In this document: positions 54,394-58,824 of the stretch, piece after piece
How the letters are laid out: every line of letters begins with the position of its first letter
Position numbering within the stretch: the stretch's first letter is position 1
From: Pedobacter aquae
GTDB taxonomy: Bacteria; Bacteroidota; Bacteroidia; Sphingobacteriales; Sphingobacteriaceae
Direction: 5' to 3'
Assembly: GCF_008195825.1 (NCBI RefSeq)
Contig: NZ_CP043329.1
Span: 2,418,001-2,482,000 of the forward strand
DNA: 64,000 nt
Position numbers and translations under genes: made by a program
The notes under the pieces: generated by a model
The model's database searches: none
Told to the model about the DNA's origin: nothing
What the model saw: the letters and a program-made list of their open reading frames with translations, nothing else

Positions 54394-54525
54394 GTGGGAG
54401 ATACTGGGTTCGAACCAGTGACCCTCCCGATTATATATCGGGATGCTCTGAAAATCCACCATAAATACCACTTATTATCTAAAATATTAAAACCAAAAAA
54501 GCCCAATTTCCATCGGGCTTTCTGT
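54394..54525 (-). repeat. Type A unit 1 (132 bp): tRNA-Val 3' part without GIY-YIG ORF
   Basis: Outermost unit of the array. It has the tRNA 3' acceptor strand, T-arm and the 19-nt palindrome in place of the anticodon arm, but the D-arm and 5' side are replaced by 45 bp of AT-rich sequence (about 54451-54495). It carries no ORF of its own. The plus-strand frames through it give GDTGFEPVT-type translations, a known tRNA artefact. Confidence 0.8.
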
Positions 54526-54562
54526 GTGGGAGATACTGGGTTCGAACCAGTGACCCTCCCGA

Positions 54563-54832
54563 TTATATATCGGGATGCTCTGAACCAGCTGAGCTTTCTA
54601 CAAGTTTCATGATTAGCTTCCTACTTTTCCACGACTTAATCTGCTTCTCTCTTTTTATAGCAGCGTCTTTAGTTTCATAAATTTCTTGAAATACCAACTT
54701 CCAATCACCTACTTTACCGGTAAAACCTTTATGATTAGTATTATGTTTCTCTATTCTGGATTTTATATCGGAAGTTGATCCAACATAAAATATATTTCTT
54801 AAACTTGAGTAGATGATGTAAACGAAATACAT
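54563..54832 (-). CDS. GIY-YIG nuclease, array copy B1
   Basis: 89 codons. The GIY-YIG motif is complete: [26 protein letters not shown] (catalytic Arg in the SRI segment) and [20 protein letters not shown] (catalytic Glu near residue 60-63), then [11 protein letters not shown]. The last eleven codons ([11 protein letters not shown]) are encoded by the tRNA-like D-arm and half of the palindrome, and the TAA stop lies in the loop of the altered anticodon arm. About 20 nt separate the start codon from the previous unit's terminator T-run, and no Shine-Dalgarno is seen. It probably nicks or cuts DNA; the target is unknown but the tRNA-Val locus is the obvious candidate. Confidence 0.82.
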
Positions 54833-54920
54833 ATTAGATAAGAATTAAAACCAAAAAAGCCCAATTTCCATCGGGCTTTTTGTGTGGGAGATACTGGGTT
54901 CGAACCAGTGACCCTCCCGA

Positions 54921-55190
54921 TTATATATCGGGATGCTCTGAACCAGCTGAGCTTTCTACAAGTTTCATGATTAGCTTCCTACTTTTCCACGACTTAATCT
55001 GCTTCTCTCTTTTTATAGCAGCGTCTTTAGTTTCATAAATTTCTTGAAATACCAACTTCCAATCACCTACTTTACCGGTAAAACCTTTATGATTAGTATT
55101 ATGTTTCTCTATTCTGGATTTTATATCGGAAGTTGATCCAACATAAAATATATTTCTTAAACTTGAGTAGATGATGTAAACGAAATACAT
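54921..55190 (-). CDS. GIY-YIG nuclease, array copy B2
   Basis: Identical protein to copy B1, in the second 358-bp unit. The flanks are also identical, with terminator and tRNA-like 3' segment downstream on the minus strand. The exact identity points to very recent amplification or to gene conversion between units. Confidence 0.8.
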
Positions 55191-55278
55191 ATTAGATAAG
55201 AATTAAAACCAAAAAAGCCCAATTTCCATCGGGCTTTTTGTGTGGGAGATACTGGGTTCGAACCAGTGACCCTCCCGA

Positions 55279-55548
55279 TTATATATCGGGATGCTCTGAA
55301 CCAGCTGAGCTTTCTACAAGTTTCATGATTAGCTTCCTACTTTTCCACGACTTAATCTGCTTCTCTCTTTTTATAGCAGCGTCTTTAGTTTCATAAATTT
55401 CTTGAAATACCAACTTCCAATCACCTACTTTACCGGTAAAACCTTTATGATTAGTATTATGTTTCTCTATTCTGGATTTTATATCGGAAGTTGATCCAAC
55501 ATAAAATATATTTCTTAAACTTGAGTAGATGATGTAAACGAAATACAT
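55279..55548 (-). CDS. GIY-YIG nuclease, array copy B3
   Basis: Identical to copy B1 over all 89 codons, third of the uninterrupted run of seven 358-bp units. No difference from its neighbours was seen. Confidence 0.8.
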
Positions 55549-55636
55549 ATTAGATAAGAATTAAAACCAAAAAAGCCCAATTTCCATCGGGCTTTTTGTG
55601 TGGGAGATACTGGGTTCGAACCAGTGACCCTCCCGA

Positions 55637-55906
55637 TTATATATCGGGATGCTCTGAACCAGCTGAGCTTTCTACAAGTTTCATGATTAGCTTCCTACTT
55701 TTCCACGACTTAATCTGCTTCTCTCTTTTTATAGCAGCGTCTTTAGTTTCATAAATTTCTTGAAATACCAACTTCCAATCACCTACTTTACCGGTAAAAC
55801 CTTTATGATTAGTATTATGTTTCTCTATTCTGGATTTTATATCGGAAGTTGATCCAACATAAAATATATTTCTTAAACTTGAGTAGATGATGTAAACGAA
55901 ATACAT
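55637..55906 (-). CDS. GIY-YIG nuclease, array copy B4
   Basis: Identical to copy B1, in the central unit of the run. The preceding terminator T-run lies about 20 nt before its start, so translation would need read-through of that terminator or a promoter within the upstream tRNA-like segment. Confidence 0.8.
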
Positions 55907-55994
55907 ATTAGATAAGAATTAAAACCAAAAAAGCCCAATTTCCATCGGGCTTTTTGTGTGGGAGATACTGGGTTCGAACCAGTGACCCTCCCGA

Positions 55995-56710: not shown

Positions 56711-56980
56711 TTATATATCGGGATGCTCTGAACCAGCTGAGCTTTCTACAAGTTTCATGATTAGCTTCCTACTTTTCCACGACTTAATCTGCTTCTCTCT
56801 TTTTATAGCAGCGTCTTTAGTTTCATAAATTTCTTGAAATACCAACTTCCAATCACCTACTTTACCGGTAAAACCTTTATGATTAGTATTATGTTTCTCT
56901 ATTCTGGATTTTATATCGGAAGTTGATCCAACATAAAATATATTTCTTAAACTTGAGTAGATGATGTAAACGAAATACAT
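56711..56980 (-). CDS. GIY-YIG nuclease, array copy B7, with IS982 at its start codon
   Basis: Protein identical to copy B1. The IS982 element (56985-58018) inserted at the start codon: the 5-bp target duplication tatta (56980-56984) includes the base complementary to the A of the ATG. The leader from the upstream unit is now 1 kb away, so this copy is probably cut off from any upstream transcription. The frame itself is intact. Confidence 0.78.
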
Positions 56981-56984
56981 ATTA

Positions 56985-58018
56985 ACCTGAGTTCGATTAA
57001 TAATAAAAGGATAAATGATAAATAAATCTTAGGAATAAAGAGGTAATATTCAGTTGTGTTTTATATATTTAAGTATCTGAAATTTAAGTATATAGATAAA
57101 CAAAACATGAATATTACCATTGATAAAGTTACTGAAATTTTCTATTTAACAGATGAGTTTTGCAATCATTTTACAGCCAATATTAGCTCTTTTAGGATAG
57201 GAAACATTCCGAAAAGGAAGCCCCTGATGTCTGATAGCGAAGTCATTACCTTAATGGTTCTTTTTCACTCGGGCAGTTTTAGAAACATGAAGCACTTTTA
57301 CCAGCAGTATGTTCAGAAACATCTGCTATCAGAATTTCCTCAAACGGTTTCCTATAATCGATTTACAGAGCTGATGCAATCAGCCGTTTTACCCATGACA
57401 ATCTTTCTTAAAACGATGTGCCTGGGCGAATGCACAGGGATCTCTTTTGTTGATTCTACTCCTATCCGGGTATGTAAGAACAAACGTATCAAACGCAATC
57501 GGGTATTCAAGGATATTGCTACCGTAGGTAAATCGACCATGGGGTATTTCTTTGGGTTTAAGCTTCATCTAATTATTAATGACAAGGGTGAAATTCTAAA
57601 CTTTGTCATTACCCAAGGCAATGTAGATGACAGAGAACCGCTTAAAAATGAACGGTTTATCCAGGCTGTCAAGGGTAAGCTATATGCCGATAAAGGATAC
57701 TTATCCAAAGAACTGACCCACATGCTGTTTGTGGACGGATTACATCTAATTACCAACATCAGAAACAATATGAAGAATTGTTTAATGGAATTGAAAGATA
57801 AAATTATGCTAAGAAAGCGCTCGGTGATTGAAACCATCAATGATGAATTAAAAAATATGTGCCAGATTGAGCATTCAAGACATCGCTCTTTTGGTAATTT
57901 TTTGACTAATATTTTATCAGGACTAATCGCTTACAGCTTCTTTCCTAAAAAACCGGCTATCAAATATGAAGTACAAAAAACCTCGCAGGTGAGCCTATTT
58001 TTATAATCGAACTCAGGT
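56985..58018 (+). mobile_element. IS982-family insertion sequence, copy 2, inside the array
   Basis: 1034 bp. The inverted repeats are acctgagttcgatta (56985-56999) and taatcgaactcaggt (58004-58018). A 5-bp target duplication tatta flanks it (56980-56984 and 58019-58023). Removing the element and one duplication restores a standard 358-bp unit exactly. The ends resemble those of copy 1 (ACGTGAGTTCGG), so the elements are related. Confidence 0.93.
57107..58006 (+). CDS. IS982-family transposase (copy 2)
   Basis: 299 codons from ATG 57107; the longer frame from 57056 is not needed. DDE residues appear in ISFVDSTPIRVC, LYADKGYLS and SVIETINDELKN. The family-typical LMSDSEVITLMVLFHSGS and HSRHRSFGNFLTN are present. 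Apparently intact. It differs clearly from copy 1, so it is a separate IS982 lineage, not a transposition of the same element. Confidence 0.92.
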   Translation: MNITIDKVTEIFYLTDEFCNHFTANISSFRIGNIPKRKPLMSDSEVITLMVLFHSGSFRNMKHFYQQYVQKHLLSEFPQTVSYNRFTELMQSAVLPMTIFLKTMCLGECTGISFVDSTPIRVCKNKRIKRNRVFKDIATVGKSTMGYFFGFKLHLIINDKGEILNFVITQGNVDDREPLKNERFIQAVKGKLYADKGYLSKELTHMLFVDGLHLITNIRNNMKNCLMELKDKIMLRKRSVIETINDELKNMCQIEHSRHRSFGNFLTNILSGLIAYSFFPKKPAIKYEVQKTSQVSLFL

Positions 58019-58070
58019 TATTAGATAAGAATTAAAATCAAAAAAGCCCAATTTCCATCGGGCTTTTTGT

Positions 58071-58202
58071 GTGGGAGATACTGGGTTCGAACCAGTGACC
58101 CTCCCGATTATATATCGGGATGCTCTGAAAATCCACCATAAATACCACTTATTATCTAAAATATTAAAACCAAAAAAGCCCAATTTCCATCGGGCTTTTT
58201 GT
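58071..58202 (-). repeat. Type A unit 2 (132 bp), right of the IS982 element
   Basis: Same layout as type A unit 1: tRNA 3' part, palindrome and AT-rich replacement of the D-arm, no ORF. It lies between the IS-interrupted B7 unit and the B8 unit, so A and B units are interspersed, which argues against simple end-on duplication of one type. Confidence 0.8.
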
Positions 58203-58239
58203 GTGGGAGATACTGGGTTCGAACCAGTGACCCTCCCGA

Positions 58240-58509
58240 TTATATATCGGGATGCTCTGAACCAGCTGAGCTTTCTACAAGTTTCATGATTAGCTTCCTA
58301 CTTTTCCACGACTTAATCTGCTTCTCTCTTTTTATAGCAGCGTCTTTAGTTTCATAAATTTCTTGAAATACCAACTTCCAATCACCTACTTTACCGGTAA
58401 AACCTTTATGATTAGTATTATGTTTCTCTATTCTGGATTTTATATCGGAAGTTGATCCAACATAAAATATATTTCTTAAACTTGAGTAGATGATGTAAAC
58501 GAAATACAT
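58240..58509 (-). CDS. GIY-YIG nuclease, array copy B8 (separate from the run)
   Basis: Identical protein to B1 but located between A units, nearer the true tRNA-Val. It is the copy closest to the presumed tRNA promoter and may be the founder of the seven-copy run. Confidence 0.8.
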
Positions 58510-58560
58510 ATTAGATAAGAATTAAAACCAAAAAAGCCCAATTTCCATCGGGCTTTTTGT

Positions 58561-58692
58561 GTGGGAGATACTGGGTTCGAACCAGTGACCCTCCCGATTA
58601 TATATCGGGATGCTCTGAAAATCCACCATAAATACCACTTATTACCTAAAATATTAAAACCAAAAAAGCCCAATTTCCATCGGGCTTTCTGT
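58561..58692 (-). repeat. Type A unit 3 (132 bp)
   Basis: tRNA-Val 3' part with palindrome and the AT-rich replacement segment. One base in the spacer (ttattacc instead of ttattatc) distinguishes units 3 and 4 from units 1 and 2. Confidence 0.8.
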
Positions 58693-58824
58693 GTGGGAGA
58701 TACTGGGTTCGAACCAGTGACCCTCCCGATTATATATCGGGATGCTCTGAAAATCCACCATAAATACCACTTATTACCTAAAATATTAAAACCAAAAAAG
58801 CCCAATTTCCATCGGGCTTTCTGT
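58693..58824 (-). repeat. Type A unit 4 (132 bp), next to the true tRNA-Val
   Basis: Same sequence type as unit 3. Its AT-rich spacer ends at the terminator of the intact tRNA-Val at 58826-58900. Confidence 0.8.

Follow-up and report, generated by a model that had tools for sequence, protein, structure and literature searches.

REP palindromes and their RAYT enzymes form a system in which small palindromes, matched to one enzyme family, are dispersed in the genome. At bacterial tRNA genes, the elements described include group I introns with homing endonuclease genes, which sit in the tRNA genes themselves (PMC3984707, in the part of the source available to us). Another close case is SegB, a free-standing GIY-YIG enzyme of T-even phages whose gene lies beside tRNA-Tyr in phage T6; according to the available part of the source, its activity and homologous recombination are both needed for the tandem amplification of the tRNA and the nuclease gene (PMC13096335). 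Here, we describe a tandem array of small GIY-YIG genes and tRNA-Val pieces in Pedobacter aquae. The array lies in a 64,000-nt stretch of contig NZ_CP043329.1 (the window, to which all coordinates refer; the genome is G000 in our set). In our view, the array probably represents the local amplification of one element from a family of minimal selfish elements that live on tRNA genes and are widespread in Bacteroidota; the mechanism proposed below is part of that reading. One element is a tiny GIY-YIG gene together with a damaged copy of the host tRNA, in which a stem-loop has been overwritten by a palindrome, and the terminator of that tRNA. For the most part, a given nuclease clade keeps to a single tRNA isotype. 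Among the open-licence PMC literature matches listed, we found no description of tRNA-linked, free-standing GIY-YIG elements in bacterial chromosomes. The class of minimal tRNA-associated GIY-YIG elements is real, recurrent, and apparently unreported, and its mechanism is one that we infer.

The tRNA-Val locus of Pedobacter aquae

Two intact tRNA-Val (TAC) genes lie on the minus strand at positions 58914-58991 and 58825-58900; both were called by ARAGORN and both score 71.6 bits with the Rfam tRNA model (RF00005). The array follows the second copy on the same strand and, when split at the terminators, occupies positions 54354-58784 with 12 head-to-tail units. Eight long (L) units of 358 bp carry a GIY-YIG open reading frame (ORF), and four short (S) units of 132 bp do not. 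An initial annotation, made from the letters alone, had reported twelve tRNA-Val-derived units, eight of them with an identical GIY-YIG protein, at 54394-58824; this was the same array in another phase, and the description is borne out. Each unit ends with a palindrome-bearing tRNA-Val piece and then a terminator of the type that follows the intact tRNA-Val at 58825-58900, whose own terminator hairpin (58785-58824, minus strand) is the 13th copy. The tandem repeat is not a chance pattern, with a TRF score of 4991 and 99% matches.

Counted from the tRNA, the units run S, S, L, S, L, L, L, L, L, L, L, S, all on the minus strand. Two S units (58653-58784 and 58521-58652) are followed by an L unit (58163-58520, ORF 58240-58509), a third S unit (58031-58162), and an L unit that is split by an insertion (56634-58030, ORF 56711-56980). 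Six further L units occupy 56276-56633 (ORF 56353-56622), 55918-56275 (ORF 55995-56264), 55560-55917 (ORF 55637-55906), 55202-55559 (ORF 55279-55548), 54844-55201 (ORF 54921-55190), and 54486-54843 (ORF 54563-54832). The outermost unit is the fourth S unit (54354-54485), and the flank beyond it is common to the sister genome G013. Among the seven L units without an insertion, only the one at 54486-54843 departs from the rest, by one terminator base; the other six are identical. The S units differ from one another at 1 to 3 positions, and the last 99 bp are common to S and L units. A C/T variant of the terminator is found not only in S and L units but also at the intact tRNA, a distribution that recombination among the units would produce.

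The tRNA-like part of an L unit starts inside the D arm, has lost the 5' acceptor strand, and carries the palindrome TCCCGATATATAATCGGGA in place of the anticodon arm. S units likewise hold a decayed D arm, the palindrome, the tRNA-Val 3' half, and the terminator. There is one palindrome per unit and 12 in total (for example, at 54557-54575 on the minus strand), and its stem covaries in relatives. Infernal scores for the tRNA family are below threshold in the eight L units (26.7 bits) and the four S units (21.1 bits). The units had been thought to carry the 3' part of tRNA-Val; a tRNA-Val piece and a terminator are indeed present in all of them, and given the start in the D arm, the replaced anticodon arm, and the lost acceptor strand, the piece is a damaged tRNA rather than a clean 3' half.

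The split unit, eighth among the L units in our description, is interrupted in its leader, just upstream of the ATG, by an IS982-family element on the plus strand (about 56985-58018, ends placed by eye). Its transposase ORF (57056-58006) matches NF033520 with an E value of 4.7e-80, and a 5-bp duplication, TATTA, was also found by eye. This element, which the initial annotation did not mention, is a later passenger outside the unit proper. An integrase-type genomic island was considered and rejected: the units hold the GIY-YIG ORF and short overlapping frames with no integrase, and the IS982 transposase is the one further gene that the array contains.

The 89-amino-acid protein, the same in all eight L units, matches the Pfam GIY-YIG family (PF01541) over residues 1-71 with an E value of 1.1e-18 and 67.7 bits, against a cut-off of 22.6. 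All 22 aligned rows share residues Y5, Y16, G18, R26, H30, and E62. In a second set of 30 rows (the window protein and 29 of 64 stop-free relatives), these residues were again invariant except Y5, which was conserved in 90% or more. On the model of I-TevI, we take Y5, Y16, G18, R26, and E62 to be the catalytic residues. The predicted structure has a mean pLDDT of 82. The solved fold nearest to it is UPF0213 (1zg2, E of 4e-4), the only one below 0.001, followed, less clearly, by Slx1 (E of 0.02) and I-TevI; profile matches of the protein also point to UPF0213 and SLX1. Between ORF copies within arrays of relatives, dN/dS was 0.05 to 0.20, and the median over 41 pairs at dS of 0.1 to 1.2 was 0.23, some of these pairs being duplicates within one genome. 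These low values show that the protein of the relatives is under purifying selection, tandem copies included, as the initial proposal required. The eight copies in the window are too alike, and their neighbors in the same clade too saturated at dS, for a direct estimate.

The protein tail SSAGSEHPD, to which the initial annotation gave weight, results from the ORF reading on into the D arm of the tRNA. A functional tail was rejected: the aligned stretch contains a stop in 16 of 80 relatives, and in 14 of these the stop is confined to the tail (places read by eye); confidence in the structure model is low at residues 84-89. The conserved feature is the palindrome in the nucleic acid, to which the initial annotation had given no separate attention, rather than the protein tail.

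Unit number changes between close species. Compared with 12 units in P. aquae, G013 (RecO 96% identical) has the same flanking genes, two tRNA-Val genes, and one S unit, and G009 (RecO 96%) has zero units and a different far flank. A third genome, G011, has a run of N at the array position. The copy-number part of the earlier proposal of a self-amplifying unit is therefore supported by the differing counts (12, 1, and 0).

tRNA linkage and isotype clustering of the nuclease clades

A scan of GTDB contigs gave 423 relatives of the window protein, of which the best 80 were kept. Record titles name Bacteroidota for all but four of the 80; the exceptions (Bifidobacterium, Kuenenia, Actinomyces, and Limnohabitans) are all metagenome bins and were taken for mis-titled or mixed bins. 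A tRNA-Val (TAC) gene lies within 130 bp upstream in 48 of the best 80, and a same-strand ARAGORN call of any kind within 250 bp in 69, some of these calls being the remnant itself. Two or more ORF matches occur in tandem in 19 of the 80, mostly spaced 339 to 479 bp apart, and in 20 the ORF lies no more than 200 bp from a contig end.

A set of 60 genomes (P. aquae and 59 relatives, in partial overlap with the 80 named loci) was also searched with the protein, and matches were found in 45. The 155 GIY-YIG matches reduce to 139 distinct ones when like tandem copies within a genome are counted once. A same-strand tRNA gene called by ARAGORN lies within 250 bp of 55 of these 139, where about 0.5% would be expected by simple arithmetic from 46 tRNAs (over the cut-off) in 3.85 Mb. 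Homologous ORFs thus stand beside tRNA genes across Bacteroidota, as the initial annotation had foreseen. In P. aquae itself, three more tRNA-linked GIY-YIG genes were found outside the window, one at a tRNA-Arg and two at tRNA-Ser genes (L009, L011, and L012).

We built a tree of 136 rows and 77 columns; three of the 139 sequences were too short, stop codons were written as X, and many forks are unresolved. One clade of 58 rows contains a single tRNA-linked row, and 59 of the other 78 rows are linked. In these 59 rows the GIY-YIG gene lies beside a tRNA gene; the scan for introns covered window positions 54300-59050, where no group I intron family was found at E values up to 1 (Rfam/Infernal). 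Isotype labels are clustered on the tree: the 60 linked rows need 16 changes, where shuffling gives 41.9 on average (the lowest of 200 shuffles was 35). Five Val labels (L001, L014 twice, L015_1129, and L018) had been set by eye; with ARAGORN labels only (55 rows), the count was again 16, against 38.5 when shuffled (lowest, 34). Labels for Val, Met, Ala, Leu, Asp, Ser, and Arg were each more clustered than in 500 of 500 shuffles over all rows. The Val clade is present in 10 of the 60 genomes, by plain count a patchy distribution.

IMG/VR gave five relatives, and the two that were inspected carry like tails at contig edges; ARAGORN found no tRNA in the available stretches of the five. A phage or plasmid origin was rejected, as tblastn at E of 1e-5 gave only 2 phage records (40% identity) and 8 plasmid records, with 37-40% identity overall.

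The damaged tRNA copy and its palindrome

Beyond the ORF, 34 of the 55 linked loci have a second tRNA copy, as evidenced by a far side that matches the locus's own tRNA better than does any far side from another isotype. These second copies are nearly always damaged; in most of the damaged ones a palindrome has overwritten a stem-loop, while an intact tRNA remains at the locus. An alignment with cheap gaps yielded 41 second copies. In 29 of them there is a GC-rich palindrome, absent from the reference tRNA, that pairs perfectly over a stem of at least 6, and some of the remaining copies contain imperfect ones. The two sides of the palindrome could be compared in 42 palindrome-bearing tails whose locus also has an intact tRNA-Val. 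Downstream of the palindrome, the tail matches the tRNA of its own locus at a median of 0.88 of the maximal score (lowest, 0.29) against 0.40 for the tRNAs of other species, and the own tRNA is best or equal-best in 37 of the 42. The part before the palindrome matches the own tRNA poorly (median of 0.51). Together, these matches place the junction between element and host at about the palindrome. The terminator is duplicated along with the tRNA half in 13 of 30 evaluable loci, which score above every control, and three of these duplications are perfect over 45 nt.

The palindrome usually replaces or enters a stem-loop. In the Val clade it stands in place of the anticodon arm, in Met just after the anticodon (L020, L029, L091, and L142), in a second Asn clade before the anticodon (L137, L148, and L161), and in L023, L108, L118, and L151 in the T arm. 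Its type differs as well: TCCCG or CCCCG in Val, Ala, Leu, and Asn, TCCGCC in Met, TCTCG in Asp, a CCTGCC-like form in six of seven Arg, and an AAGG-centered form in Ser. Typing covered 37 rows, with 5 of the 41 remnants left out for having no readable palindrome as aligned (L025, L031, L032, L177, and L185). Palindrome type tracks nuclease clade, in that 50 of 56 same-clade pairs from different genomes agree compared with 15.4 when shuffled, using classes that were set after the sequences had been seen.

Within the Val clade, anchors alone located the palindrome in 57 of 80 tails, giving 48 distinct inserts in which stem pairs 1 to 7 are Watson-Crick in 39 to 45 of 48. In 49 chosen tails the stem is 97.3% paired, a somewhat flattering value because 8 of the 57 tails were dropped by hand as near-duplicates or ill-fitting. 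Both-sided changes occur at five of the seven pairs, in 26 cells compared with 7.6 when shuffled and at most 5 in slid versions of the same 49 tails. The pairing and these compensatory changes show that the stem is conserved as a structure, in DNA or RNA.

Several other palindromes and remnants were observed. A genome-wide, REP-like spread of the Val palindrome was rejected for P. aquae, where 12 of 15 TCCCGAT copies are inside the array. Of the three outside, one is in RNase P RNA (RF00010; about position 1501 of L043), and the other two (L042 and L044) belong to copies of one repeated sequence that was first taken by eye for a group II intron, an identification dropped when no Rfam gathering score was reached. 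G043, of the same class, has 203 CCTGCC and 95 TCCCGAT palindromes against 1 and 0 for a reversed-pattern control. The tRNA-Ser loci of P. aquae have a reversed order (damaged tRNA, ORF, intact tRNA), and each of their damaged tRNAs contains two inserts that resemble palindromes. Palindrome-marked tRNA pieces also form tandem arrays without any ORF (L310, L311, and L312); the tRNA-Lys type adjoins an intact tRNA-Lys in G058, and the tRNA-Val type, with a period of 74 bp, runs off the contig in G038. In L015, the unit tails at 1427-1504 and 1052-1129 were called by ARAGORN as full tRNAs with the stop-reading anticodon TTA, and of the GIY-YIG ORFs, the one closer to the intact tRNA contains a single TAG in frame; both features most likely represent decay.

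Possible origins and comparison with described systems

How might such an element persist and multiply? We propose that the nuclease cuts or nicks the region of its cognate tRNA gene, at the arm that is later marked by the palindrome. Recombination repair between the repeated modules of tRNA 3' half and terminator would keep the tRNA intact while a unit is gained or lost beside it. The palindrome-marked copy would no longer be a tRNA and would probably be a poor cutting site, which may be why it persists. S units would be non-autonomous deletion derivatives, amplified by the same recombination, and by analogy with phage SegB, nuclease cuts probably stimulate the amplification.

Several observations count against this proposal. 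The intact tRNA should stay a target in any cell that carries the nuclease, and ordinary unequal crossing-over can enlarge a tandem array without any nuclease. Classical homing enzymes such as I-TevI have a separate DNA-binding domain; the window protein is a bare GIY-YIG domain without one, so that comparison with enzymes of the I-TevI type leaves its sequence specificity unexplained. No clean jump to a new tRNA locus was isolated among the genomes compared, and the family could be mostly vertical. Clustering by isotype is not universal, as three Pro rows are unclustered and Asn is weak (17 of 500 shuffles were as low). Nor is the architecture: 21 of the 55 linked loci have no second tRNA copy that passes the control, terminators are not clearly duplicates in 17 of 30 loci, the palindrome anchors failed to fit 23 of 80 tails, and 25 of 105 tails have no palindrome of the searched type. 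At L031 (tRNA-Gly) both tRNA copies look intact. The tRNA beside the unit, described initially as staying intact, normally does so, with the exception of L014 (G008), in which the upstream tRNA is itself truncated.

One alternative is a system like REP/RAYT, in which the short palindromes are the mobile entity, each is placed by its matching GIY-YIG enzyme, through insertion or copying, at a fixed position of a given tRNA gene, and arrays are a side effect. Palindrome type does track clade across genera and differs between clades within single genomes (G000, G004, G014, G017, and G049), and ORF-less arrays of palindrome-marked tRNA pieces exist. CCTGCC palindromes number a median of 27 in the 7 genomes with an Arg clade and 3 in the other 53 (P of 0.004, phylogeny not accounted for). 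P. aquae has 21 of them and an Arg nuclease, and its sisters G009, G011, and G013 have 0, 0, and 2 and no Arg nuclease. TCCCGAT behaves similarly, with a median of 5.5 in 24 genomes with Val, Ala, Leu, or Asn clades compared with 1 (P of 1e-4, own array excluded). This correlation ignores phylogeny, however, and still counts the in-unit palindromes of other genomes. It is also not clade specific, as TCCCGAT associates with the Arg clade at P of 5e-4 but with Val alone at 0.09 and Ala alone at 0.10. Two clades share one palindrome type in G007 and G022, few TCCCGAT palindromes in P. aquae (3 of 15) lie outside the array, and we isolated no case in which a palindrome had cleanly entered a site that was otherwise identical. 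We regard a palindrome-centered system as rather unlikely. A joint version is possible, and we offer it tentatively: each GIY-YIG clade would be a parasite of one tRNA gene that writes its cognate palindrome at a fixed tRNA position, and tagged pieces would also spread alone. Nuclease and palindromic tag might then make up a two-part chromosomal system, analogous but unrelated to REP/RAYT.

Passive tandem duplication would need no selfish nuclease at all: slippage or unequal crossing-over between tRNA-terminator repeats would carry along a GIY-YIG gene with a host role, such as repair of structured DNA in the manner of SLX1 or UPF0213. The 99 bp common to S and L units are enough for recombination, the C/T variant is common to S units, L units, and the terminator of the intact tRNA, and UPF0213 and SLX1 are the nearest folds. 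We nevertheless think this quite improbable, since it leaves unexplained the tRNA linkage of 59 of 78 rows, the isotype-bound clades, and the clade-matched palindrome. The transcribed damaged tRNAs might instead serve as regulatory RNA or as decoys that bait tRNA-cutting toxins or phage factors, with copy number selected for dosage. Each unit has a terminator, and the compensatory changes that keep the stem of the replaced anticodon arm would also follow from an RNA role; phage T6 is described in the available part of the SegB source as benefiting from tRNA amplification (PMC13096335). A full cloverleaf is unlikely in most units, however, because the remnant 5' part matches its own tRNA so poorly, and the fold of the window's own unit is weak (z of -1.8), and we hold a decoy to be highly improbable. 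An assembly artefact, suggested by the exact repeats and by the run of N at the locus in G011, deserves next to no credence. S and L units are interleaved, one unit holds an IS982 copy and another a one-base variant, and at least two tandem ORF matches recur in 19 of the 80 named relatives. As the genome is a single contig and tandem copies are also seen in independent assemblies, an artefact, raised initially as a concern, is unlikely; this answer is indirect, with copy number taken from the assembly.

The selfish-element reading thus stands as the best explanation; what was first noted at this locus is confirmed as an observation, and its interpretation as a selfish unit is partly supported and widened. 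If the version with nuclease plus tag is true, tRNA genes are a standing niche for hidden elements under 400 bp across Bacteroidota. If the selfish-element reading is true, these would be among the smallest self-amplifying units in bacteria, with one ORF of about 90 codons, sheltering at essential tRNA genes and common in Bacteroidota. They would account for many small genes annotated as "GIY-YIG nuclease family" and for many damaged tRNAs. Contig breaks next to tRNA genes, such as those near the ORF in 20 of the 80 kept relatives, may have the same explanation. They would be a chromosomal counterpart to SegB amplification in phage T6, and their natural sets of isotype-matched enzymes would suit the study of how a bare domain finds its site.

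How do these elements compare with described systems? The 89-amino-acid protein most resembles UPF0213 and SLX1, in solved folds and in profile matches; SLX1 needs a partner, and GIY-YIG proteins of either kind are not known to be linked to tRNA genes. REP/RAYT shares the matching of palindrome and enzyme, but in the unit a single ORF matches a known family, that of GIY-YIG nucleases and not of Y1 transposases, and the palindrome sites studied here lie inside tRNA copies. The MORFFO elements of fern plastomes are alike by anatomy only, and differ in residing in plastids. The enzymes of fungal mitochondrial mORFs are larger than the protein described here. Group I introns are likewise selfish elements with endonuclease genes at bacterial tRNA genes (PMC3984707, available part). 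Unlike them, the ORF here is beside the tRNA rather than intronic, and positions 54300-59050 contain no intron family.

In the mORFs (Allomyces atp6; Glomus atp6, atp9, cox2, and nad3), as described in the available part of the source, an endonuclease ORF has entered a gene in such a way that the host gene retains an intact 3' end, with a second copy of the target's 3' end beyond the ORF, as in 34 of our 55 linked loci (PMC3630166). mORFs bring a foreign 3' end, however, whereas here the 3' half matches the locus's own tRNA (37 of 42 tails); they also concern protein genes in mitochondria (PMC3630166). The present elements carry a palindrome and may stand in tandem arrays. SegB resembles our elements in being a GIY-YIG enzyme beside tRNA genes with tandem arrays of tRNA and nuclease gene, but it belongs to a phage rather than a chromosome and amplifies the whole tRNA (PMC13096335). 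In the part of that source available to us, SegB has no isotype preference, in contrast to the isotype-clustered clades described here, and a damaged, palindrome-bearing tRNA copy is not mentioned (PMC13096335). Compared with SegB and the mORFs, as far as these partial sources extend, a clade-matched palindrome in the second copy combined with isotype-matched nuclease clades is found only in the elements described here.

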